DNA from: Rhodococcus spongiicola
GTDB taxonomy: Bacteria; Actinomycetota; Actinomycetes; Mycobacteriales; Mycobacteriaceae
DNA length: 64,000 bases
Assembly: GCF_004011835.1 (NCBI RefSeq)
Contig: NZ_RKLN01000002.1
Span: 663,469-727,468, forward strand
Reading direction: 5' to 3'
Shown here: positions 1-25,486 of the stretch, in pieces
How the letters are laid out: the number at the start of each line of letters is the position of its first letter
Numbering within the stretch: position 1 is the stretch's first letter
Position numbers and translations under genes: made by a program
The notes under the pieces: generated by a model
The model's input: the letters and a program-made list of their open reading frames with translations, nothing else
Databases searched by the model: none
Told to the model about the DNA's origin: nothing

Positions 1-54
1 GTCGTCGGGGTCGAAGCCTTCGTCGCGGATCGCTGCGGCTTCGATCGGGTCCAT
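1..54 (-). CDS. Start of a partial hypothetical protein
   Basis: An ATG at 54 on the minus strand opens a frame running off the left edge and reading MDPIEAAAIRDEGFDPDD. It lies 55 bases downstream of the stop of the preceding minus-strand gene and in the same orientation, so it could be the next gene of that operon. No clear ribosome binding site is visible. Too little is present for any functional call. Confidence 0.25.
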   Translation of the reverse strand, partial: MDPIEAAAIRDEGFDPDD

Positions 55-109
55 GTGGGTTGGACGCGCTGGCTGAGCGATTCGTTCCAACGTCGCACCC
101 AGGGCGACG

Positions 110-484
110 TTACGTGCCCGGCTGGGGTCCGAACTCGCGCAGCACGTCGACGGAGGCGAGCACCCGCACCCTCTTCTGGCGGTGCACGGTCATGTTCGTC
201 TCCTCGATCCGGGTCTCGACCTCCCGGAGAGAGAATCCGTAGATCCGCCCGACGGCAGGCACGGTTACCCACTCGACCTCTGCCAGCACCGGGTCTTCGC
301 GGCCCCAATTGCCGCGCCCGGGGCGGGCCGCCATCCAGGCGTCGATAGTCTCAGGCAGCCAGCCGCGCCGGTCGCCGATCATGGCATCCGGCGGGGGCAG
401 GTGGTAGCTCTCCTTCAGCGAGTCCCGGTGGACCCCGGCCCGCTCGGCGACCTCGGTGCGGGACAGATAGACGGTTGTACTCAT
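110..484 (-). CDS. Small HTH (AlpA/excisionase-like) protein
   Basis: A 124-residue protein. The N-terminal stretch YLSRTEVAERAGVHRDSL followed by a conserved Gly-Trp-Leu-Pro-Glu-Thr-Ile-Asp-Ala-Trp segment is typical of winged-helix AlpA/MerR-like DNA-binding modules. A longer open frame exists upstream, but the ATG at 484 is preferred because it overlaps the stop of the preceding gene (ATGA), implying translational coupling. The C-terminal half (VPAVGRIYGFSLREVETRIEE) contains a second possible helix-turn-helix. It is likely a regulator or directionality factor of the left element; the precise role is unknown. Confidence 0.6.
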   Translation of the reverse strand: MSTTVYLSRTEVAERAGVHRDSLKESYHLPPPDAMIGDRRGWLPETIDAWMAARPGRGNWGREDPVLAEVEWVTVPAVGRIYGFSLREVETRIEETNMTVHRQKRVRVLASVDVLREFGPQPGT

Positions 485-858
485 TCCCTCATCTCCTCTC
501 GTGCGACGGCGTCGTCTGGTACCTGGACGTCCAGGGCGACAAACCCGACCTGGCGGGCGGCGCGGGCGACGATGGCTCGCTCCCACTTGGTCGCGCGCTC
601 GGGCATCGTGAGTTCGTTCATCCCGTCTTGCTCGGTGGCGGTGATAAGCCGTCGGACGGCGGCGTCGAACTCGTCGTGCAGCTCGTAGATGTTGTCCCAC
701 AACGAGACCGGCACCGCGGCGGCACCGGTCTCCATCCGCTGATAGGAGTTGCGGCTCATGCCGATTTGCTCGGCCATCTCGCGCGTGGACAGCCCGAGGT
801 AGTCCCGGGCCGCGCGCAGGCGCCCGGCCCGCCCCCACTCGTATGTCTTCTCGCTCAT
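481..858 (-). CDS. Cro/C1-type HTH regulator
   Basis: A 125-residue protein. Residues about 12-50 (RLRAARDYLGLSTREMAEQIGMSRN, then SYQRMETG) form a classic Cro/C1 or XRE helix-turn-helix. The ATG at 858 is chosen over an upstream start because GAAAGGA lies about ten bases upstream of it. The protein ends in an acidic, helical tail without a recognised domain. Its stop overlaps the start of the next HTH gene, so the two are probably co-translated. Likely a repressor or regulator within the left integrated element. Confidence 0.65.
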   Translation of the reverse strand: MSEKTYEWGRAGRLRAARDYLGLSTREMAEQIGMSRNSYQRMETGAAAVPVSLWDNIYELHDEFDAAVRRLITATEQDGMNELTMPERATKWERAIVARAARQVGFVALDVQVPDDAVAREEMRE

Positions 859-1311
859 CAGGCTGATGTCCTTTCGATCACCTTCCCCGCGCACCACTCT
901 TAGTGCCGACCCGTAGGTCTAGGCGGGGCTATCGGCAGCGTGCTCCAGCGTCCTGCCGACCCGCGTGGATGTCCCGTATTTCCCACGGTGTGTCCCCTAT
1001 AGCCCGCTCCCGCACAGGGGGGCTATTCGGTTTCAGTCTTACGCCCTCCGGGTGCAGCCCGCAGAGGTACCGTCCCATCCGCTTCGCCTCATTGGCCGAA
1101 TATGCCAGATCACGATGCCTCACAACACCATTGACTCGTCCCGTCCCGGAGTCGCGCCCCACTCCTGGCAACGCCGTACAACAAGACCCTTCGCCGCCAT
1201 CGCGGCGGGGCTGATGCTCACAGGAGCCCCAGCCGCGCACGTCGCCCGCCTAGCGTTCGCGGAGATGTGTTTTCGCCGTTCGGGGGAATATCGGCTGCAA
1301 AGCCCCGGGGA
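859..1311. other. 453-base stretch without a supported gene
   Basis: The region lies between the HNH gene and the HTH operon, both on the minus strand. A minus-strand frame (929-1240) exists but has no ribosome binding site or recognisable domain. The stretch presumably contains the promoter of the HTH operon near 860-900. I see no convincing RNA or terminator. Confidence 0.4.
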
Positions 1312-1623
1312 CTACCGCCCCTCCGTGAAGGGGGTCTCCCCCCACCCTTGCCGCGCCTCACCATCGCCGTCCGCGCGGTATCCGGCGTCTGGGAGCCGGT
1401 CTCGGTTGCCGCGGCGCAGGTTGCACCGTAGGTGCGTCGCTTGCAGTGGCCCGGTGTTCGACCCTCCCTTGGAGACCGGGGTGACGTGGTCGGCGCTGGC
1501 GCTCATCGGGTCTGGGTAGGACAGGTCGGGGTCGATCCATTGACCGCATAGCGCGCACACGTCGGAGGTGCGCAGGATCCGGTCGCGGTTGCGGCGGTAG
1601 GTGCGGTGCCCGGTGAGGCTCAT
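1312..1623 (-). CDS. HNH endonuclease
   Basis: A 103-residue protein. A CALC zinc-knuckle Cys pair is followed by ADHVTPVSKGGSNT, the HNH core, then H-L-R-C-N, the second metal-ligand group. This is the compact HNH layout of phage- and element-borne nucleases, which often sit beside packaging or mobility genes. The ATG at 1623 overlaps the stop of the upstream small gene (ATGA), preferred over the ATG six codons further upstream. No terminase follows within the window, so a packaging role is unproven. Confidence 0.8.
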   Translation of the reverse strand: MSLTGHRTYRRNRDRILRTSDVCALCGQWIDPDLSYPDPMSASADHVTPVSKGGSNTGPLQATHLRCNLRRGNRDRLPDAGYRADGDGEARQGWGETPFTEGR

Positions 1624-1802
1624 CGTTTCAGCCGTGCCCAACCGCGCGGCTTGGTCTCGCCGTCCGGTTGGTCGTCGGTGATGTGGAGGTGGATGTGGAT
1701 GCCGCCGCTCGACTGCTGACTAGGCGTCTGTGCGTCGATGCTGTCGGCGATACGGCGCAGAACTCCCGCGGTGATGGATGTGATTGCGTCGATCGGGTTC
1801 AC
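1620..1802 (-). CDS. Small hypothetical protein with His-rich strand
   Basis: A 60-residue protein with a GTG start at 1802 preceded by GAGGAGG four bases away, a strong ribosome binding site. It contains GGIHIHLHI, an alternating His/hydrophobic strand, and a basic C-terminus. It is co-directional with and overlaps the HNH gene (ATGA), so it belongs to the same transcript. No family recognised. Confidence 0.6.
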   Translation of the reverse strand: MNPIDAITSITAGVLRRIADSIDAQTPSQQSSGGIHIHLHITDDQPDGETKPRGWARLKR

Positions 1803-1972
1803 AGCGCCTCCTCAACGCGAATACTCGGGTTCACGCGGCGGCAATGGCGTGGTTGCTCCGAAATGTCGGCGTCTGGTGATAGCTTCCGTCACGCCCGGGG
1901 GGGATCTACTCGCGTTCTTTCGAGATGCCACCGGTGCACCACGTCATACGGAGAACGAGAGAAAGAGATTCC

Positions 1973-2524
1973 TTGATCAAGTCAGTACGTGCCGCTGCCG
2001 CAGCAGCCTTGGCCGCCCCGCTCTTGGCCGCCGCGTTCGCCGCGCCAGCAAACGCCGCACCCAAAGACGTCGCTCTCTCTGTCGATGTCGTGGGCAACGA
2101 CATTGAAGTCATCATCACCAACAACACCCAGGGGTGGATCGCCTGCAACTGGACGGCAACGAGCGGCTTTTTAGGTGACGTCTACTTCCGCTTCATGGAG
2201 CCCGTCCAGCCAGGCGGGGAGTATCGCGAGCCGCTGGTCGTCGCCGATGGCCGCTACGACGTCAGTTGGAACTGCATATCGACACTCAGCATCGAGAAGT
2301 GGGGGAACACGCCGGACACCGGCACGGCCGGTCCGTACTCGTTCACCGCACCGCCTTGCAACATTGCCGGCAGCCTCGGCAGCCTCGGCAGCACCGACTC
2401 GGGCAGCCTCGGCAGCACCGACTTGGGCAGCGGCGGCAGCACCGACTCGGGCAGCCTCGGCAGTGCCAACTCCGGCAGCGGCGGCAGTCTCGGCAGCTTC
2501 TGCGGCAGCCTCGGCGGCTCCTAG
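1973..2524 (+). CDS. Secreted protein with Gly/Ser repeat tail
   Basis: About 183 residues from a TTG start at 1973, with GAAAGAGA just upstream. The N-terminus IKSVRAAAAAALAAPLLAA and an A-N-A site form a clear Sec signal peptide. The middle (residues about 30-125) is a small beta-rich domain with two Cys-containing segments. The tail consists of four 8-residue units of the type GSTDSGSL (2387-2482), then further Gly/Ser stretches and a Cys near the end. It has no recognised family. It sits beside a lipoprotein gene near the element end, a position typical of cargo. Confidence 0.65.
   Translation: MIKSVRAAAAAALAAPLLAAAFAAPANAAPKDVALSVDVVGNDIEVIITNNTQGWIACNWTATSGFLGDVYFRFMEPVQPGGEYREPLVVADGRYDVSWNCISTLSIEKWGNTPDTGTAGPYSFTAPPCNIAGSLGSLGSTDSGSLGSTDLGSGGSTDSGSLGSANSGSGGSLGSFCGSLGGS
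2387..2482. repeat. 24-bp tandem repeat, four units, inside the secreted-protein gene
   Basis: Four in-frame 24-bp units encode GSTDSGSL, GSTDLGSG, GSTDSGSL and GSANSGSG. Units differ at a few bases. Copy number could vary by slippage, altering linker length without a frameshift. Confidence 0.8.
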
Positions 2525-2534
2525 CCGCCCCTTC

Positions 2535-2566
2535 CTGGCCCGGCACCATCACCGGTGTCGGGCCAG
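2535..2566. terminator. Hairpin after the secreted-protein gene
   Basis: CTGGCCCGGCACC (2535-2547) pairs with GGTGTCGGGCCAG (2554-2566) through a 6-base loop with one G-T pair. It starts 10 bases after the stop codon. There is no long U tract. Confidence 0.6.
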
Positions 2567-2746
2567 AAACATGTTCGGGGCCGGTGTTCGGTCGTTCGCC
2601 AGGTAACCCGGCTTTCCGCGTGTGCTGCCGCCAGCTGTCCCAGTTGCGCGGTGGACGTCGATTCCGTGGAAGCCCTCTAGATATGCGACCTCTGTTGTGC
2701 CGGAACCAGATCAGCACTGACGGGGTCTCTCGAATATGGTATGCGC

Positions 2747-16797: not shown

Positions 16798-16869
16798 GGG
16801 CGTGTAGCTCAGTGGTAGAGCTCTGGTTTTACACACCAGCGGTCGGGGGTTCGAAACCCTCCGCGCCCA
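16798..16869 (+). tRNA. tRNA-Val (anticodon TAC)
   Basis: A 72-nt cloverleaf: acceptor GGGCGTG/CGCGCCC, D-arm GCTC..GAGC, anticodon stem CTGGT/ACCAG with loop TTTACAC (anticodon TAC), T-arm with TTCGAAA loop, discriminator A at 16869. The CCA is not encoded. Its 3' end is the left attachment site of the adjacent element, and the tRNA remains intact. Confidence 0.95.
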
Positions 16870-16870
16870 C
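16849..16870 (+). other. Left attachment site (attL core)
   Basis: The 22-bp core starts GTTCGAAACCCTCCGCG and is the T-loop to the end of tRNA-Val plus one base. It is identical to 23718-23739. Confidence 0.9.
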
Positions 16871-16920
16871 TCAACAGATTGGCTCCGGTCTGCGTGTAAG
16901 TGCAGGTCGGAGCCATTCTT

Positions 16921-18048
16921 TTACGAACCTCGGGCGCGGTCTGCCCACATTTTGCCCACACTTGCCCGAGATCGAGCGTCACTGAGTGCGGTCGCCACTG
17001 CCTCGAGGTCGTCGTCGAACAGGTCGGCGTAGACGTCCAACGTCATTGCGGCGGAAGCGTGTCCGAGCATCCTCTGTACTGCCTTCACGTTCGCGCCAGC
17101 TGAGACTGCCAGTGACGCCGCAGTGTGCCGTAGATCGTGGGGAGTGACTCGAGCGATACCCGCGGCCGTGACGGCCTTGTCGAACCAACCGGACTTGGTA
17201 TGCGGCCGACTGAGATGGTTGCCGGCCTCGTCGGGGAATACGAGTGCGTCGCGGGCTCGTCCCTCGCATTGGCGGGCAAGATATGGAATCAGGAAGTCGG
17301 GGAGCGGGACTGTGCGCCGCTTGTGTCCCTTGGTTGTCCCGACGACGATCTGATTGCCGATCTCGACGGCGTTCTCGTCGACTGTTGCGCGGCGCCGTAG
17401 CAGGTCGAGGTCGCGCACGCGCATTCCTGTTGCCTCGCCCCAGCGCACGCCGGTATAGGCGAGCATGTAGATCAGGGTCTCGTGCTCGCCTGCTGCGCGC
17501 GCGAGTAGAGCCACCTGCTCGTGATCGAGGTAGACGTGTCGTTTCTTCCGCTTGCGTGGCAACTTAACACCGCGTGCCGGATTCGATGCGATGAGGCGAT
17601 CGCGTACGGCGTCGTCGAGGATCGACCCGAGAACTTGGTACGTCCGAATGACCACGGTTGCACCGACGGGCTTCTCGCCGTCGGCGCCACGTCGGAGATC
17701 CGAAACCCATTGCTGGACTGCGCTTGTCTTGATGTCCGAGAGGCGGACGCCGCCCCATCGGGGCTGTACGCGGAGCCGCCAGGCGACCTCGATGGGCCGA
17801 TAGGCGCTTGGTTTCAGGTGCGTTTGACGACCGAGCCAGTCGGGTCCGAGTTCGTCGATCGTCGTACGGGCGTCAGCTGGCGAGATGTATTCGCCGCGGA
17901 GCTTCGAAACCTCGGTAGTCGCGGCGAATGCCTCTGCGTCACGCTTGGTTCGAAACCCGCGCTTGTCGGTCTGCTTTCGGTCGGGCGTGCGGTATCGGAC
18001 GCGGTAGCGCTTGCCGGCCTTTGTCTCGTAGCTCTCAATCGTCGCCAT
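16921..18048 (-). CDS. int: Tyrosine integrase
   Basis: A 375-residue tyrosine recombinase with all active-site residues: Arg202 (TGVRWGEA), Lys240, His304 and Arg307 (HDLRH), His330 (LGHAS) and Tyr340 (LDVYADLF). An AP2-like arm-binding N-terminus (residues 1-45) and SAM-like core-binding domain precede it. It ends 51 bases from the tRNA-Val gene and is expected to recombine the 22-bp core. ATG at 18048 is preferred over one 12 bases upstream for ribosome-binding spacing; the gene start overlaps the repressor gene by 14 bases, so both are on one transcript. Confidence 0.95.
   Translation of the reverse strand: MATIESYETKAGKRYRVRYRTPDRKQTDKRGFRTKRDAEAFAATTEVSKLRGEYISPADARTTIDELGPDWLGRQTHLKPSAYRPIEVAWRLRVQPRWGGVRLSDIKTSAVQQWVSDLRRGADGEKPVGATVVIRTYQVLGSILDDAVRDRLIASNPARGVKLPRKRKKRHVYLDHEQVALLARAAGEHETLIYMLAYTGVRWGEATGMRVRDLDLLRRRATVDENAVEIGNQIVVGTTKGHKRRTVPLPDFLIPYLARQCEGRARDALVFPDEAGNHLSRPHTKSGWFDKAVTAAGIARVTPHDLRHTAASLAVSAGANVKAVQRMLGHASAAMTLDVYADLFDDDLEAVATALSDARSRASVGKMWADRARGS
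16946..16970 (-). repeat. GTGGGCA direct repeats near attL
   Basis: On the minus strand two GTGGGCA copies and one degenerate CGGGCA occur about one helical turn apart, inside the last codons of the integrase gene. A near-identical set lies by the right end (23608-23633). They look like integrase arm-type binding sites. Confidence 0.5.
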
Positions 18049-18538
18049 GTCGCCGGTCATTCCTGCGCTCGAAGAACTCCAAAAGAGTATTGATCATCTT
18101 GCGTTCGTTCTCCGGCGTGTCCGCGGTCTCTTCCTCAAACTTCCACTCCGGGCGGGCCCGCATCATCCAATCAAGGTCGATCACGGGCCAGCCTGGGCGG
18201 CCTGCACTCTCGGCAACAATCCACAGCCAGAGCTGGCGGGCGGTGGCGGTACCGACGCCGGTCGCTTCCACCTCAGCCTCACCACCCTCGGCGACTGGCA
18301 TGAGGAGGGTCGCGGGGCTGACGTCCAGAGCGATGGCCAGCGCCAGCAGGTCGTCAACGTCGATTCGGCGAGATCCGTTCTCGATATCGCTTAGCGAGGT
18401 GTGCGCGATCCTGCGACCGGCTGCGTCCATGCGCTCGGCCAGGTCGCGGAGCGTGAGGCGCTGAGTCCTGCGGAGCCGCTTCACGTTCTCGCGGACGGTA
18501 TGGCCGGTGGTGTCGAGTTCGACGCGTCGAATTGGCAT
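18035..18538 (-). CDS. Cro/C1-type repressor of the element
   Basis: A 167-residue protein. VRENVKRLRRTQRLTLRDLA followed by ERMDAAGRRIAHTSLSDIENGSRR is an XRE-family helix-turn-helix (residues about 14-70). The rest includes a Trp-rich segment (ARQLWLWIVAESAG) without a known domain. It is divergent from the excisionase gene and upstream of integrase, the usual immunity-repressor position. ATG at 18538 is chosen because further upstream the frame has no HTH-family character. Its 3' end overlaps the integrase start. Confidence 0.85.
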   Translation of the reverse strand: MPIRRVELDTTGHTVRENVKRLRRTQRLTLRDLAERMDAAGRRIAHTSLSDIENGSRRIDVDDLLALAIALDVSPATLLMPVAEGGEAEVEATGVGTATARQLWLWIVAESAGRPGWPVIDLDWMMRARPEWKFEEETADTPENERKMINTLLEFFERRNDRRHGDD

Positions 18539-18649
18539 GTTCCGGATTCTATGTCCCTTGGTGTGGCCAACAGTGCATCGCTGTGCTTCTATAGGAATTG
18601 GCATCACAGGGCCACATTGGCCGGATATCCGGACGGAAGGAATGAAGAG
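18539..18649. promoter_or_regulatory. Divergent control region repressor/excisionase
   Basis: The 111-base gap between repressor and excisionase starts contains the perfect palindrome CCGGATATCCGG (18621-18632) and GGCCA/TGGCC elements around 18569-18621. It probably holds both promoters and the repressor operators. Assignment of individual boxes is inference. Confidence 0.5.
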
Positions 18650-18868
18650 ATGGGCGACGTTGCGAAGCGGCCACCGTTGGCCACGGCGGCAGAGGTCGCG
18701 GAGTACCGGCGCACGACGGAAGCGACCCTTGCGCAGGAGCGGTACAGGGGCATTGGCCCGCGCTACAAGAAGCTCGGTAAACGCGTGTTCTACGACTGGG
18801 CGGATGTCTACGCCTGGGTTGACGCGCACAGCTGTCAGCGGACCGACGACGCGGCGACGGCGAAGTGA
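18650..18868 (+). CDS. xis: Excisionase-like HTH protein
   Basis: A 72-residue protein. ATAAEVAEYRRTTEATLAQE then YKKLGKRVFYDWADVYAWVD is the HTH_17/AlpA-type winged helix of small excisionases. ATG at 18650 follows GGAAGGA. It is the first gene of the rightward transcript, directly facing the repressor, so it probably serves as recombination directionality factor and/or activator. Confidence 0.8.
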   Translation: MGDVAKRPPLATAAEVAEYRRTTEATLAQERYRGIGPRYKKLGKRVFYDWADVYAWVDAHSCQRTDDAATAK

Positions 18869-18892
18869 TGGGAAGGGCGACGCCCGGCCCAC

Positions 18893-19219
18893 GTGCGGAT
18901 GGGGCCGGGCGTCAAACAACGCCTTGGAAGGCTGATTCGGTTGATTGATCGGTGGATCGAAACCGGCCACGAGCGTAGAGCACGGGCCGGACAGCGTCTA
19001 ACTCCGCTCGAATGCGGGTGTGCTGACCCTGCCCAGCACCAGTGCCGTGCCTCGCGGGTGTCGGGGCTCGCGACATTGTCCGCGGCGGTACACCTCGCAC
19101 GGGCGGACCTGCGCGGATTGTTCGACGTCGACGAACTTCGCGGAGCGCGACGGTACGCGACCTGCGCGGAAGAACGGGCCGTGCTCGAGCGACTGGCAAC
19201 AACTGCGGAGGTTTCATAG
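18893..19219 (+). CDS. Small hypothetical protein upstream of the AAA+ gene
   Basis: About 108 residues from GTG 18893 (an ATG two codons later is possible). It is Arg-rich at the N-terminus and contains ECGCADPAQHQC, a Cys/His cluster that could bind metal. Its stop overlaps the start of the AAA+ gene by one base, so it is co-translated with it. Not recognised; a primase-accessory or loader role would fit the position but is unproven. Confidence 0.6.
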   Translation: MRMGPGVKQRLGRLIRLIDRWIETGHERRARAGQRLTPLECGCADPAQHQCRASRVSGLATLSAAVHLARADLRGLFDVDELRGARRYATCAEERAVLERLATTAEVS

Positions 19220-20391
19220 TGGTGAACGCTCTACCAGTTGGGCGTGACTACCCTGACGCGGTTTGGGTCGACCAGGACGGACCGATCCCGTTCGTGGGCG
19301 CGGCAGAACAAGAAACGGACAGGGCAGAACATGAAACGGCCGGCTGGCGGCGTCCTCGCGTGTGGAACGCGCTAGAGCTGGCGGAAGCTCGCCAAGTTGA
19401 TTGGCTGGCGGCGCATCGGCTCCCCTCTGCGTCAGTCTCGTACATGGTCGGGCCTGAAGGCATCGGAAAATCGCTGTTCCTGGTTTGGCTTACAGCGGTG
19501 ATCACCACGGGTAAACCGTTCCCCGCGTTCGGGATTCCCGCACGCAATCCTCAGACCGTCGTCCTGGTGCTCACTGAGGATGACTGGGCTACCGTCGCGC
19601 GGCCGCGGCTCGAGGTCGCTGGCGCGGATCTGGCACACGTGCGGGTGATCTGCGAGGACAGAGACGGATCCGGCACGCCGACGTTCCCTCTGCACATGGA
19701 TGTCGTCGCGGACGCCTCCACGGACGCGGCGCTGGTGATCGTTGACGCGTGGGCCGACACACTCCCCGGTGGGCAACCGGTCAAGGATCCTCAGAACGCG
19801 CGGAAAGTGCTGCATCCGTGGAAAGAGCTTGCAACGCGTACCGGAGTTGCTGTGCTGCTCACGGGCCATACGAACCGCGAGAAGGGGAGCAACGTCCGCA
19901 ACGCCTACGGGCTCACCGGGGAGATTCGGAAGAAGGCGCGCATGACCGTGCTCGCACAACCGGACCCCGACGAGGACGGGGTACTAGTGATCGGGCCGGA
20001 AAAGTCGAACCTCACGGCCGGTGTCCCGGCGTCCAAGTTCCAGATCCGATCCGTCCAGGTATTCGATCCAACCGACGCGAGCGACGGCACGGTCCCGTGC
20101 CTCGAATGGATCGGCGACGCCAACGCGAACGCCCGCGACTTCTACGCCGACGCGGCAGAGGACGCCGAAGGAGGTGGCGACGCGCCCCGGTCGACCGGCC
20201 AGGCATGGCTCGAAGACTTCCTGACCGAAGCGGGGAAGGCGACGGCGAAGGAGGTGAAGGCTGCCGCGGCGAAGGCAGACATATCGCTACGGACCTTGCA
20301 ACGCGCGGCGAAGAAGGTCGGCGTGGTGTACACGAACGAGGGCTTCCCGCGGGTCTCGCACTGGTCGCTACCTCAGTCGCGCCATGAGTAG
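19219..20391 (+). CDS. AAA+ (RepA/RadA-like) replication-type ATPase
   Basis: A 390-residue ATPase of the AAA_25/RecA-like class. Walker A is GPEGIGKS (78-85), Walker B is ALVIVDAW, and LLTGHTNREKG with YGLTGEIRKKARM form the sensor region. The C-terminus (TAKEVKAAAAKADISLRTLQ) is a winged helix. Such proteins are common in actinobacterial integrated elements in the place of a replicative helicase or initiator. GTG at 19219 or 19222, seven or ten bases after GGAGG. The origin-like repeat array begins inside its last codons, supporting a replication role. Confidence 0.8.
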   Translation: MVNALPVGRDYPDAVWVDQDGPIPFVGAAEQETDRAEHETAGWRRPRVWNALELAEARQVDWLAAHRLPSASVSYMVGPEGIGKSLFLVWLTAVITTGKPFPAFGIPARNPQTVVLVLTEDDWATVARPRLEVAGADLAHVRVICEDRDGSGTPTFPLHMDVVADASTDAALVIVDAWADTLPGGQPVKDPQNARKVLHPWKELATRTGVAVLLTGHTNREKGSNVRNAYGLTGEIRKKARMTVLAQPDPDEDGVLVIGPEKSNLTAGVPASKFQIRSVQVFDPTDASDGTVPCLEWIGDANANARDFYADAAEDAEGGGDAPRSTGQAWLEDFLTEAGKATAKEVKAAAAKADISLRTLQRAAKKVGVVYTNEGFPRVSHWSLPQSRHE

Positions 20392-20516
20392 CCGGTGCTT
20401 CTACGTGTGGCGCCACTGGCGCAACTGGGCTTTACCAGGGGAAATGCAGTCGCGCCACGTGGCGCGACTGGACAGTCGCGCCACAGCGGAGATACGGCGC
20501 GACTACTGGCGCGACA
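20374..20516. repeat. Origin-like array of CAGTCGCGCCAC repeats and palindromes
   Basis: Copies of CAGTCGCGCCAC in both orientations: 20374-20385 (11/12), 20447-20458, inverted at 20459-20470 (together a perfect 24-bp palindrome), 20473-20484, and inverted shorter copies at 20496-20504 and 20507-20515. GTGGCGCCAC (20407-20416) is a further 10-bp palindrome. The array starts in the last codons of the AAA+ gene and fills the non-coding gap after it, as iterons of satellite replication origins do. Confidence 0.7.
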
Positions 20517-20578
20517 GCGCGGGAAGGCTGCCGCGGCACCGCTCCGCGCTGCCTTGCCATCGAACAGAAGGGAACCGT

Positions 20579-20713
20579 ATGAGTAGGGGCTTTCCCATCA
20601 CAGAGAACCGAGCCCGCGGCCCCGACCGGGGTGGGGCTGGTCCTCTCCCTCCGATCGGGGGGTACCCATCGCGCGCGGGGATGAGTTCAGCAATCGAGAG
20701 AAAGGCGAGGTAG
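20579..20713 (+). CDS. Small hypothetical protein (44 residues)
   Basis: ATG at 20579 with GAAGGGA six bases upstream. The product is basic and Pro/Gly-rich (MSRGFPITENRARGPDRGGA). Its TAG overlaps the GTG of the next small gene by one base, suggesting a real translated unit. No family recognised. Confidence 0.45.
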   Translation: MSRGFPITENRARGPDRGGAGPLPPIGGYPSRAGMSSAIERKAR

Positions 20714-20874
20714 TGGGCGAGAACGTGAGTGCTTTCGAGGATGACGGCGCGGTGGCGGTTGTCGATGTTCCGGCTGGCGAGGTGTGGGCGGATAGCGGCT
20801 GGTACGGGTCGGTCGGTGATCTGCGGTCCTATGCAGGCGTCGTGCATATCGGACGGTTTGGGGGTCGTCGATGA
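20713..20874 (+). CDS. Small hypothetical protein (53 residues)
   Basis: GTG at 20713 in a TAGTG overlap with the previous gene, with AAAGGCGAGG upstream. The product is acidic at the start and ends VWADSGWYGSVGDLR then SYAGVVHIGRFGGRR, with several Trp and Tyr. Its TGA lies within an ATGA that could start another frame (20871 onward), but that frame runs antisense to the next minus-strand gene. Unknown function; a satellite regulatory or capsid-interference protein is only a guess. Confidence 0.5.
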   Translation: MGENVSAFEDDGAVAVVDVPAGEVWADSGWYGSVGDLRSYAGVVHIGRFGGRR

Positions 20875-20970
20875 GGGGCGCGGACGGTATGCCGGGGTCT
20901 GACGAGATTCGGTTAATGCTGCTCAGGATAATTCCGGAGTCGAATCGGGAACGGACGGGGCGACGAGGGG

Positions 20971-21300
20971 CTACTCGGTCGGCCCGCCGACAACTGGAGA
21001 TTTTAGAGCGGGCATTTGGTCGAAATACCCCTTCATTTCGGCCTCGTACTCCGGGTAGTAGTCCCCGGACAGGAACTCCTCGCGTAGTAGGTCGTGGAGG
21101 GCGACCGGGATCGGGAGATGCAGGCGTGCCGCGTGTCGGAGCATGTCGTAGACCGCGGTCTCAGGGAATCCGTCGCGTACCAAGGTCCGTACCATACTTA
21201 CGACACCGGGCGGGAGAATGTCCTGCAGGGCGTCGTACAGTGGCTCAGCACAAGGGGATTCCTCCCGCAGTCGCCGTCGAAACTCCGTTTCGTCGAACAC
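20971..21300 (-). CDS. Hypothetical protein on the opposite strand, before the capsid gene
   Basis: A 109-residue acidic protein from GTG 21300 with AAGGGG upstream. It reads FDETEFRRRLREESPCAEPL and then LRHAARLHLPIPVALHDLLR, mostly helical, with an ending GYFDQMPALKSPVVGG. It is transcribed against the replication and capsid genes, so it may be an independently expressed cargo or regulatory gene. Not recognised. A plus-strand frame covers the same bases but has less protein-like composition. Confidence 0.55.
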   Translation of the reverse strand: MFDETEFRRRLREESPCAEPLYDALQDILPPGVVSMVRTLVRDGFPETAVYDMLRHAARLHLPIPVALHDLLREEFLSGDYYPEYEAEMKGYFDQMPALKSPVVGGPTE

Positions 21301-21625
21301 CCCACACCCCTTAGAAGCCGTCGACACCGAACCCAGTCCGACTCTCCGCCTCATCGGTGCGCTTCTGAGATGCTTGAGCTGGAACCGGTGTCAGGCTTGT
21401 CTGACTACCCCGCTATCTAACCCGGACCTCGCCATCTTCGGCAAGGGGTTTGTGTCCGTCTCCTCGATCCCGCGGCAGAGCGTCGCCCGGTACTACACGC
21501 TCGACGTTCGGCGCTCCACTACGCGGTCGGCCGGCGCCCGGGTTTTGTTTGGTGTTGAACGGGATCCTGTGGTCGGCGAATCTGTCACGGACGGCAAAGG
21601 ACCAGGACAGAAGGCGGAAACCACT
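21301..21625. other. Region between the minus-strand gene and the capsid gene
   Basis: 325 bases with no supported gene. It must hold the promoter of the minus-strand gene and probably one for the capsid gene. The capsid frame stays open upstream, but its translation there lacks capsid character. Confidence 0.4.
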
Positions 21626-22771
21626 GTGGGACTCCTCGAGGTGCTCAAGGCGAAGCAACAGCGGGCGGCGGAACTGGCGGCGCAGTCGGGCGAATACAGC
21701 GCCGACGAACTCGCGGAAGCGCAGGAACTCGCTGTCGGGATTCCGGAACTCAAGTCGCGCATAGAGGCGGACGAGAAGGTCCGGCAGGCGCTGGCCGATA
21801 TGAAGGCGGGCGGTGACCCTGACGACCCGGAACCCTGGGGCGGCGCTGGAAAGCGGGGATATCTGCGGCTCAAGGGTGATGCGCTCGCCTCGCGGCTAGC
21901 TCACGGGATGCTCAGCGGCCCTGAGTTCGGGCGTAAGGCTCTCGCCCCTGCCGGTGAGTCGGTGGCTCCGGTGCAGGTCGAGACCACGCCTGTGCCAGAA
22001 GGTCGGCCTGTGGCGGGCCTGCTTGATCTCGTTCCCGCCGTGCTCAATTCCTCGGCGCGGTTCGAGTACCTGCGACAGACAACGCGGGAGTACCTAGCGG
22101 CTCCGGTCACGGTCGGCGCGGTCAAACCCACCTCGCGGGTTGGGTTGTCCCGTGAGGCCGGCGACCTTCAGGTCATCGCTCACCTGTCCGAGCCGATAGA
22201 CAACTACCTGCTCACGGACTTCCCCAGCCTTGAGATGTTCGTGCGGGACGAGCTGGTGCATGGTCTCGCCCAGGCGCTCGAGAAGCAGATTCTCAGCGGT
22301 GACGGTATGGCGCCGAACCTGCGCGGCATCCTCGGCACTGAGGGCATCCGGGAACAGGCGTTCGCGGTTGATGCGATCACTTCGGCGCGTAAGGCGATTA
22401 CCCAGCTCGAGGCGCAGGGGCTCGAACCGTCCGGGTTCTGCTTCAGTCCTGCCGACTGGGAAGCGATCGAGCTGGCGCGTACTAGCGGCTCCGGTGCGCT
22501 CGAGCTGGTGGACTCTCCGGTGGATCGTGCGGCGCGGCGCCTTCACGGTGTCCCTGTGGCGGTCTCGGCTGGTCTCGAGGATGGGCGCGGCGTGCTGGTG
22601 TCGTCCGGATCGGTGGCGCTGCGCGTCGACGCGGGTATCGCTGTCCGGTGGTCCGAGAACGTCGGCAACAGCTTCGAGAAGAACGAGATTCGCGCGCGTG
22701 CCGAGCTGCGGGCAGCTACCCAGATTCAGCGTCCGTCCGGGGTGGTCGTGGTCGAGACTGCCGCGGCGTAG
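21626..22771 (+). CDS. HK97-fold major capsid protein
   Basis: A 381-residue protein. Residues about 1-50 (GLLEVLKAKQQRAAELAAQS, ELKSRIEADEKVRQAL) form a helical delta/scaffold-like region. The rest has the HK97 coat layout: TTPVPEGRPVAGLLDLVPAV, FEYLRQTTREYLAAPVTVG, LTDFPSLEMFVRDELVHGLA, QALEKQILSGDG (E-loop and spine helix), and a C-terminal HGVPVAVSAGLEDGRGVLVS domain. GTG at 21626 is the probable start. No prohead protease, portal or terminase gene accompanies it. Its last 87 bases are duplicated downstream. Confidence 0.85.
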   Translation: MGLLEVLKAKQQRAAELAAQSGEYSADELAEAQELAVGIPELKSRIEADEKVRQALADMKAGGDPDDPEPWGGAGKRGYLRLKGDALASRLAHGMLSGPEFGRKALAPAGESVAPVQVETTPVPEGRPVAGLLDLVPAVLNSSARFEYLRQTTREYLAAPVTVGAVKPTSRVGLSREAGDLQVIAHLSEPIDNYLLTDFPSLEMFVRDELVHGLAQALEKQILSGDGMAPNLRGILGTEGIREQAFAVDAITSARKAITQLEAQGLEPSGFCFSPADWEAIELARTSGSGALELVDSPVDRAARRLHGVPVAVSAGLEDGRGVLVSSGSVALRVDAGIAVRWSENVGNSFEKNEIRARAELRAATQIQRPSGVVVVETAAA

Positions 22772-22780
22772 CTACTCGCG
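22685..22780. repeat. 96-bp direct repeat, copy 1 (capsid 3' end)
   Basis: Runs from GAGATTCGCGCGCGTGCC through the capsid stop to GTAGCTACTCGCG. It matches 23382-23477 at 89 of 96 positions by hand alignment without gaps. Copy 1 is the true end of the capsid gene and also supplies the stop codon of the opposing cargo gene. Confidence 0.9.
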
Positions 22781-23239
22781 AAATTCGGGCAGCGTGCCCT
22801 CGCCGCTCTCAGCCTGCTTCTTCCACGGCGAGTACTTCCTCAATAATGCGTGAAGACCGCCGAGGATCCAGAAGCCCGTCCCGGCCAAGAAGGACACGCC
22901 CATCCATTGAATGCGCCTCTCCCATGCATCCGCGCACAACTGGGTGTTGGCGAAAGGCGTGTCAAAGCCGTTGGACACACTGCCACAGGCGAACGGTCCG
23001 GCCGTGAGGTCGGGGAGGAACAGCAGTATAGGGATGAGGAACATCCCAGCGAGTGCTAGAGAGCCAAGAGCCTTCTCAATGTTCGAAGACGGGCTCTCGT
23101 CGTGTACCTTGAAGAACTTCTCGTTTCGCCGCTGTGGGCGGGAGCGCGTGCGGTTGCTCCACCGGGTGCCGTCCCAGTACCGCTTGGGGTGCTTGCCGGA
23201 GGGATCGGGATACCAGCCAGCGGGCGGCAAAAAAGTCAT
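22772..23239 (-). CDS. DUF2510 membrane protein, satellite cargo
   Basis: A 155-residue protein. The N-terminus PAGWYPDPSGKHPKRYWDGT is a DUF2510 module, found in many actinobacterial membrane and phage-encoded proteins. Two hydrophobic segments follow (SLALAGMFLIPILLFLPDL and MGVSFLAGTGFWILGGLHAL), with two Cys between them. ATG at 23239. It is convergent with the capsid gene and lies between two 96-bp repeats, the position of a mobile cargo or moron gene. Superinfection exclusion or another membrane defence would suit its form but is inference. Confidence 0.75.
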   Translation of the reverse strand: MTFLPPAGWYPDPSGKHPKRYWDGTRWSNRTRSRPQRRNEKFFKVHDESPSSNIEKALGSLALAGMFLIPILLFLPDLTAGPFACGSVSNGFDTPFANTQLCADAWERRIQWMGVSFLAGTGFWILGGLHALLRKYSPWKKQAESGEGTLPEFRE

Positions 23240-23381
23240 GAGTGCATCAAATCAGGAGGGCCAACCTCGGGTTCGTGCCAGGGGTGCTGATGCCGAGCCA
23301 CTGACTCGTTGCGTGGCCGTTCTCCTGCCAGGAGTCGGTCGATCACCGGACTCAGGTTCAGGCGCTGCCAGCGAGAGTCTT

Positions 23382-23477
23382 GAGATTCGTGCGGGTGCCG
23401 AGCTGCGGGCAGCTACCCAGATTCAGCGTCCGTCCGGCGTGGTCGTGGTCGAGACGACGGCCGCGTAGCTACTCGCG
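23382..23477. repeat. 96-bp direct repeat, copy 2 (truncated capsid 3' end)
   Basis: Encodes in frame the last 28 capsid residues (IRAGAELRAATQIQRPSG to the stop) without the rest of the gene. Seven substitutions separate it from copy 1. It is followed directly by the terminator. Confidence 0.9.
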
Positions 23478-23514
23478 GCCGTCCCGACACCTGGTCCTGG
23501 TTGGGACGGCCGCG
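23474..23514 (+). terminator. Terminator after the second capsid-end copy
   Basis: CGCGGCCGTCCC (23474-23485) pairs perfectly with GGGACGGCCGCG (23503-23514). It overlaps the end of repeat copy 2, suggesting it was originally the capsid gene's own terminator, separated from it by the cargo insertion. Confidence 0.75.
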
Positions 23515-23607
23515 TCCTCGCCGGATCGGGGTGTGAGGCTGTGGACTGCCATCGGGTCACTGAAGACGGGTCGTTCAGGCTAGTTTGCCGCGGTTGGATG
23601 CCGTGCC

Positions 23608-23633
23608 CACACTTTGCCCACACTTGCCCACGT
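23608..23633 (-). repeat. GTGGGCA direct repeats near attR
   Basis: Three GTGGGCA copies spaced 10-11 bases apart on the minus strand, nearly identical to the set at 16946-16970. Read in frame they give ASVGKVWA, matching the integrase C-terminal ASVGKMWA. Either arm-type integrase sites or a relic of an integrase gene end. Confidence 0.5.
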
Positions 23634-23717
23634 ATTCGCATGATCTAGCGTGATCTGTTGTGATGCGTTTATGCAGGTAGATGGTATTTTGACGGTCTGA
23701 CCTGGCGGTGGCTGAGA

Positions 23718-23739
23718 GTTCGAAACCCTCCGCGCCCAC
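23718..23739 (+). other. Right attachment site (attR core)
   Basis: A 22-bp copy of the tRNA-Val 3' end, starting GTTCGAAACCCTCCGCG, with no tRNA body upstream. Confidence 0.9.
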
Positions 23740-25025: not shown

Positions 25026-25486
25026 CTGGGCAACCGCGGTGCCCTGCCAATCCGCAGGCGCCGTCGTCAACACGAACACCACGGCTGTGAACACTGCCCG
25101 CTCGTCGACTGGCGCGGTCCCGCCGCCTTGTTGTCTGGGCGCGAACGAGGGGGCACCTGTTTCACGCTGTCCCTCAACGTATCCGGGACCAGCCTCTGCG
25201 CAAGCCTGTCGACCCCCGGGGTATGGCGGGGCACCAAGGTGCTGCGCTTGTTGCGCAGCGCTTCCGATGCGCGGGACAAGAAGCCGGTACGCCTGACGAG
25301 GGCAGCGCACGTACGTTAGACGAACCCGCAAAGCAGTTGGTACACAGGCACATCGAAAGTCAGTTCCGGTTAGCAGTGGTTCCCTGCCCAGCCGTGGGAG
25401 GATTTTCGGCCCGCGACGACCTGCTGCGGCATATCCTGGGCTCCAGGATTCTTGCAGACTCCAGACCCTCTTCGTGGGAGAAGCCG
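25026..25486. other. Intergenic region, no gene recognised
   Basis: About 460 bases between the Zur-like box and the flavodoxin-fold gene. A minus-strand frame (24996-25517) crosses it and the zinc box, has no ribosome binding site and is not protein-like. TGCTGCGC/GCGCAGC at about 25240-25260 forms a small hairpin. It may contain decayed sequence from an earlier insertion, but I cannot identify it. Confidence 0.4.

Follow-up and report, generated by a model that had tools for sequence, protein, structure and literature searches.

What can a mobile element do with the shell gene of a phage and no other recognised head gene? The question is raised by a 6.89-kb element inserted at a tRNA-Val(tac) gene of Rhodococcus spongiicola (genome of 3.97 Mb), at positions 16849..23739 of a 64,000-nucleotide stretch of contig NZ_RKLN01000002.1, here called the window. 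Both termini are exact 22-bp duplicates of the 3' end of the tRNA gene, and between them lie, in this order, a minus-strand integrase and helix-turn-helix (HTH) repressor, an excisionase-like gene, an open reading frame (ORF) of unknown function, an AAA_25 ATPase gene, an iteron cluster, small ORFs, a gene for an HK97-type major capsid protein (MCP) and a minus-strand DUF2510 gene. This anatomy agrees with a preliminary description of the window, which had proposed a compact, capsid-only satellite with exact ends, an integration, excision and repressor module and a replication-type ATPase beside an origin-like array. We consider it probable, though by a modest measure, that the element is a phage satellite of the integrase-plus-capsid kind, one that encodes its shell itself and relies on a helper phage for the portal, the terminase, the protease and the tail. 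The anatomy and the family evidence are strong, and from them we infer the function, the use of a helper included.

The MCP gene (21626..22771, plus strand; 381 residues from a GTG, the open frame continuing upstream) has a predicted HK97 fold, and the profile of its family aligns to nearly the full length of HK97 gp5 (3qpr), the delta-domain part included. It is the sole structural gene recognised in the element, where tail genes were not searched for systematically. Searches of the element for a portal (PHROG 12 and PF05133), a large terminase (TerL; PHROG 9 and PHROG 2) and a head maturation protease (PF04586) were all empty, as the preliminary description had anticipated. The element proteins gave no family match to small terminases, connectors or HNH either, although small divergent proteins can escape such scans. 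The same description likened the element to capsid-forming satellites that borrow tails from their helper. Its integrative and satellite-like character, with the capsid as sole recognised structural gene, holds; with no portal, large terminase or protease found, these would have to be borrowed as well as tails, so that the element is not simply a small capsid-forming phage-inducible chromosomal island (cf-PICI). A lone shell gene might also specify a nanocompartment used by the host, similar to an encapsulin. This is very improbable: the mobile setting makes it unlikely, and among the encapsulin models family 3 alone scored, with 16.3 bits against a cut-off of 180.

The relatives of the capsid indicate that its isolation is shared. 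The search of 301 genomes of the bacterial family (E ≤1e-10; own genome counted throughout) found the capsid family in 49 places, distributed over 43 genomes, and at E ≤1e-20 it was present in 14 of 397 genomes of the order and in 5 of 396 of the phylum. A single-protein capsid scan of named genome contigs gave no relatives. The capsid places were compared with portal (PHROG 12, PF05133) and TerL (PHROG 9, PHROG 2) matches within 15 kb and with S78 protease (PF04586) matches within 3 kb. PHROG 12 and PHROG 9 were searched in all 43 genomes and the other three models in 33 of them; weak PHROG 2 rows, none within 15 kb of a counted capsid, were excluded. Near the 33 closest places (E <1e-40), a portal was found in two cases (L047 and L050), TerL in none and the protease in eight, at least two of which, L044 and L050, encode it as one protein with the capsid; the absence carries little weight at L010/L262, L023/L064, L024/L053 and L067, which lie near contig ends. 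Four places between 1e-40 and 1e-24, two of them fragments, had neither portal nor TerL. The 12 most distant places (>1e-24) had a portal in 10 cases and TerL in 11, as expected of prophages, the exceptions being G214 (neither) and G168 (TerL only). The near absence of portal and TerL from the 33 closest places thus shows that the capsid-only state belongs to a group. The preliminary description would have been contradicted by relatives that are simply longer, complete prophages, with this locus a unique deletion; the close relatives are not of this kind, and most lack both genes.

The capsids of this group also form a lineage of their own. In the capsid tree, one branch parts 30 satellite capsids from 23 phage or prophage capsids (support 97/85; recovered in 96% of 200 bootstrap trees), and 28 of the 30 satellite capsids form a group supported at 100/98. 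An enlarged tree parts 34 satellite capsids from 23 phage and prophage capsids (99/93). Eight short, truncated or long-branched rows (L071, L260, L067, L262, L079, L064, L053 and L061) and L078, a copy of L047, were dropped from both trees; a quick tree that keeps the eight gave the same one-branch split (97). The phage rows, which are capsid-family matches from collections of phages and viruses and from the genomes searched, comprise 10 prophages with portal and TerL, three named phages and 10 viral contigs. The latter were taken as phage from their collection; home-made profiles found a portal in six of the 10 and TerL in four, and neither in L107, L121, L137 and L147. They stem from an alignment search in which 80 of 303 loci were kept, 12 read and 10 used, a single-protein search of the viral contigs having given no match. 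The extra satellite rows L271 and L272 and the plasmids L276 (NZ_CP096036.1) and L312 had neither portal nor TerL with the same profiles. Purifying selection acts on the capsid in the relatives: dN/dS (NG86) was 0.36, 0.22, 0.28, 0.38, 0.20 and 0.45 in six pairs, a seventh giving no value, and 0.11-0.67 for the integrase in four of these pairs.

These results bear on the idea that the element is a worn-down prophage that merely happens to retain its capsid gene. Some observations agree with it: a second copy of the capsid 3' end is present, separated from the first by a gene, and related elements do decay, as seen from capsid fragments in L055 and L068 and from an integrase scar in R. xishaensis. 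However, many relatives have the same content and intact ends, while separate decays would leave different genes each time; moreover, one branch sets the satellites apart from phages and prophages, and the relatives show purifying selection. A recently shrunken or complete prophage should have close complete kin, and none was found: blastn against 50,697 phage records returned six Gordonia phage records, matching only in the integrase region and over ≤7% of the element. Decay as the cause of the capsid-only state is thus largely refuted, and we hold the worn-down prophage to be improbable.

Under the preferred reading of a satellite, the boundaries and sizes of the relatives are of interest. 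Forty relative stretches were fetched and their genes mapped with a home-made gene finder; protein families are considered among the 25 of 126 and 25 of 134 listed. Direct repeats bound 24 of the 40, which with the window element makes 25 att-bounded elements; L061 is counted among them though no integrase was predicted there. Twenty-two are located at tRNA genes (Val, Ser, Arg, Gly, Ala, Gln, Pro, Thr and His), and the bounding repeats of L038, L060 and L062 have no tie to a tRNA found by ARAGORN. The usual gene order is integrase, repressor, excisionase, replication gene, small genes and capsid. L040 occupies the same tRNA-Val, adjoining AhpE. The bounded elements measure 6.9-13.1 kb (median 9.0 kb), that of the window being the smallest. 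If the T=7 shell of HK97 holds 39.7 kb, a T=3 shell, scaled by volume, would hold about 11 kb, and 23 of the 25 elements are below this value.

Some members carry single packaging or tail genes. Small-terminase matches occur in L043, L059 and L062, with a homologous protein in L063, and an HNH match in L048. Two otherwise capsid-only elements have a tail gene right after the capsid: a tape measure protein gene in L037 (582-4859) and a Gp37-like siphovirus tail gene in L049 (10529-12220), whose product is 51% identical to a minor tail protein of Rhodococcus phage REQ3. The three small terminases and both tail genes point to siphoviruses as helpers. A small conserved gene precedes the capsid gene in 13 loci (E <1e-3), in most of them as its immediate neighbour; one member of this c13-like protein had no match in the phage collection. 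L062 and L063 are related elements of 12.6-13.1 kb in one genome, with capsids 55% identical and IS21-like genes recognised by eye.

AhpE, encoded upstream of the tRNA gene, shares 95% identity with its R. xishaensis counterpart and 94-95% with those of Prescottella species. The insertion site itself was followed in 80 AhpE loci, none of which has a capsid of this family and six of which have, beside the tRNA gene, a related integrase or the scar of one. The scar in R. xishaensis (L158, 10571-10800) is an integrase 3' end at the same tRNA-Val, 82% identical over 221 nt, homology resuming at 25253, which indicates that the site was used before. A clean empty site was sought in L159, L161 and L163; in all three, homology to the window breaks off exactly at position 16870, where the tRNA gene ends, and is next found far downstream, which gives a left breakpoint rather than a joined empty site.

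Other relatives are recorded as circles. The closest capsid found (56% identity) is encoded by plasmid unnamed1 of Rhodococcus pyridinivorans Y6 (NZ_CP096036.1; 13,649 bp), which consists of two head-to-tail copies, 99.77% identical, of a 6.82-6.83-kb unit that encodes a tyrosine recombinase and a capsid protein, once each; in one copy the capsid gene is split into two frames. Whether the dimer is genuine or was produced by doubling during assembly, the unit is recorded as a circle. Like our element, it has one capsid and one tyrosine recombinase gene per 6.83-kb unit, but it is recorded as a free dimeric circle with another recombinase and other replication-type genes. The 15.9-kb circle pDJL3 of R. 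qingshengii has a related integrase, an AAA_25 ATPase, TerL and a tape measure gene and no recognised capsid, and is possibly a complementary type of satellite. In Streptomyces, pWTY27 (NC_013667.2) has a lone HK97-type MCP (38% identity over 78% of the query) that groups in the tree with the capsid of an element from another family of the order. Its authors called this capsid unexpected (PMC3583192). Unlike the element, pWTY27 is conjugative, with traA, traB and a resolvase-type recombinase, although the PLSDB software types it as non-mobilizable.

A further tie to plasmids is a site directly after the iteron cluster. Positions 20526-20570 match small Rhodococcus plasmids, and their 31-bp core (20528..20558, plus strand; an imperfect dyad) occurs with ≤2 mismatches at 27 places in 16 of the 301 family genomes, against one for the reversed control. 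It is present in 47 of 72,556 plasmid records, all from Rhodococcus or Prescottella and 37 typed as conjugative, and in none of 50,697 phage records. By coordinates, two of the 27 places lie in the satellites examined, namely in our element and in its sister L033. The distance from the core to mobF, which lies downstream, is 3.9 kb in pDF03 and 6.4 kb for a plasmid of R. ruber Y14. Its positions 9 and 25 are complementary in 24 of the 27 places, against none of 5000 shuffles, the places not being mutually independent. A strong hairpin is not supported by DNA folding (z-scores of -0.74, -0.77 and -0.20 for three copies). An oriT-like site or a replication site are guesses as to its role.

Such findings could mean that the element is a plasmid-like integrative element, moved by conjugation or by hitching on conjugative plasmids, in which the capsid is a passenger. 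The plasmid-type replication module, the distribution of the 31-bp core among conjugative plasmids and near mobF, the circular relatives and the lone MCP of pWTY27 all fit. Nevertheless, the element proteins include no relaxase, TraB or coupling-protein match, pNit has no annotated mobF within 7 kb of the core, and on small plasmids the core is near replication genes or elsewhere. The rarity of the core in satellites and the selection acting on the capsid of the relatives also speak against a passenger, and we give this explanation little credence.

The capsid could instead serve as an anti-phage decoy. By joining the head of an invading phage during assembly, or by poisoning it, the protein would shield both the host and the element, whose mobility would then depend on other means. 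On a conjugative plasmid such as pWTY27 packaging need not be the purpose of a lone MCP, a strong match to the SoFic defence family stands next to the capsid in L045, and a prophage protein that blocks virion assembly is described as a defence, there directed against tails (PMC10884400). Mixed shells are less likely given the identity of 26-33% between satellite and phage capsids (best 40 of 787 matching phage records, all 787 below 60%; a closer phage capsid may be unsampled). In addition, the head protease kept by eight of the 33 closest relatives suggests a shell that matures, and the small-terminase matches in three relatives, with the homolog in L063, also count against it. We therefore regard a decoy as rather unlikely.

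If the element is a satellite, its cycle may be pictured as follows. In the lysogenic state the HTH repressor would silence it at tRNA-Val, until induction of, or infection by, a siphovirus helper triggers it. Integrase and excisionase-like protein would then release a 6.9-kb circle, which could replicate from the iteron cluster with the help of the AAA_25 ATPase. Its own capsid protein would next assemble into a small shell, the N-terminal helices possibly serving as an internal scaffold. Portal, terminase, head protease and tail for packaging would come from the helper, and the shell protein would dictate a head size suited to the satellite but not to the helper. Direct support comes from the anatomy, the ends, the predicted fold, the family-wide lack of portal and TerL, the separate capsid lineage, the purifying selection in relatives, the narrow size range and the circular relative. 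The wider group of such elements probably borrows the rest of the particle in the same manner. A bolder proposal, to which we grant somewhat less than even chances, is that a single capsid gene amounts to a distinct satellite strategy. Rather than resize the helper head or contribute a complete head module, such an element would swap in only the shell protein, which with its built-in scaffold would make a small head around the portal and terminase of the helper. The lineage would extend through Mycobacteriales to Streptomyces, exist integrated or as free circles and plasmids, and have added single packaging or tail genes in some members.

A candidate helper is present in the same genome. Contig C1 contains, at ~403.5-438.5 kb, an apparently complete siphovirus-type prophage, whose terminase, portal and protease were confirmed by PHROGs and whose capsid is 30% identical to that of the element. 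It is a possible helper. A packaging site common to both was sought among shared words and rejected, as these are no longer than in six control stretches of the window, the last of which is shorter.

Several points weigh against the satellite interpretation. A foreign portal and terminase would have to engage the shell of the element. The longest word that the element shares with the C1 prophage is 16 nt, against 15-18 nt in the controls. A strain with a cf-PICI and 17 prophages is described in which none of these mobilised it (PMC11389934), so that a co-resident prophage is no proof of a helper. The small upstream gene of 13 relatives is missing from the element, dN/dS rests on pairs of relatives with the capsid of the window outside them, and satellite life does not explain the lone capsid of a conjugative plasmid.

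Elements of this kind had already been noticed. A 2023 survey of Mycobacterium described candidate PICIs defined by an integrase and an MCP, some at tRNA genes, with the helper lacking experimental proof, and counts phiRv1 and phiRv2 among the PICI-like elements (PMC10654092). Our element has both defining genes and lies outside Mycobacterium. Tyrosine-integrase members of that set are shown at tRNA genes, some with helicases (PMC10654092); the element differs in belonging to the Prescottella/Rhodococcus group and in its size of only 6.9 kb, the comparison being one of definition. It is not an isolated case. With cf-PICIs such as EcCI2 it shares an HK97-type capsid of its own and the expected dependence on helper tails, whereas the portal, large terminase and head protease that feature in their description (PMC10690885) are not found in it. 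MulchRoom and MiniFlayer are likewise actinobacterial satellites with their own capsid gene but have a full head and packaging module and no recognised replicase (PMC10690885). A survey of actinobacterial prophages raises the possibility that its small elements (<15 kb) are satellites and notes that experimental work is trailing (PMC10023795).

In our literature search, which left most subscription papers outside, we found no account of capsid-only satellites as a separate strategy. To our knowledge, described satellites use or remodel the head of the helper, or bring a fuller set of head and packaging genes. Among elements of this already recognised kind ours is a small one, and what makes it worth testing is the capsid-only state of most of its group. 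If one capsid gene suffices, a foreign shell must accept the portal, terminase and protease of the helper; this would challenge the idea of closely matched head parts, make head-size control testable with one gene and explain what small actinobacterial integrase-plus-capsid elements do.

The remaining features of the element complete this picture. The tRNA-Val(tac) gene (16798..16870, plus strand; ARAGORN) ends with the attL core (16849..16870), repeated exactly as attR (23718..23739). Just inside both ends are arm-type repeats, TGCCCACA, at 16942..16967 (direct repeat D6, 96%; tandem unit of 11) and 23604..23631 (direct repeat, tandem unit), which are likely integrase arm sites; a comparable repeat pair adjoins the ends of L060. 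The tyrosine integrase (16921..18048, minus strand; 375 residues) matches Phage_integrase at 6.3e-27 on the longer reading 16921-18060 and is 61.5% identical to that of L033. The HTH repressor (18035..18541, minus strand; HTH_3, 8e-10) is 48% identical to its L033 counterpart. On the plus strand follow the excisionase-like protein (18650..18868; 72 residues; PHROG 66, 7.9e-8), with blastp matches in 11 relatives, and the ORF of 108 residues without family match (18893..19219). The replication-type ATPase (19219..20391, plus strand; 390 residues; AAA_25, 2.6e-21) is 48% identical to that of L043; its C-terminal part matches a PHROG DNA polymerase/primase family at 5.5e-16, and a comparison with solved structures gave no match.

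At the end of the ATPase gene and directly after it lies a cluster of eight iteron-like decamers on both strands (20375..20516), a candidate replication origin. The motif TGGCGCGACT, with ≤1 mismatch, is not commoner than chance in the window as a whole, but eight of its 11 matches fall within these 142 bp. Between the cluster and the capsid gene are a weak ORF of 53 residues (20713..20874, plus strand; coding score only 6.3) and an ORF of 109 residues (20971..21300, minus strand; coding score 17.9) without family match, the family scans being partly on a longer reading.

The duplicated capsid 3' end is a 96-bp repeat at 22685..22780 and, as a remnant, at 23382..23477 (both plus strand; 93% identity, seven mismatches), the second copy being followed by a terminator-like inverted repeat (I10; 23474..23514, 93% complementary). 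The gene between the copies (22772..23239, minus strand; 155 residues) encodes a DUF2510 domain (1.3e-10) and, by eye, hydrophobic segments. Contig C24 of this genome encodes a paralog (74%), and a copy of the 31-bp core lies ~1.3 kb from this paralog and likewise from its R. xishaensis counterpart. We infer that recombination at the capsid 3' end brought the DUF2510 gene in as cargo.

Outside the element, the left edge of the window (1-2600) contains phage-like pieces. Among them are an HNH-like ORF recognised by eye (1312-1623), a small ORF (1620-1802) that is 43% like one upstream of the terminase of the C1 prophage, and a secreted-type protein gene whose relatives recur around that prophage.

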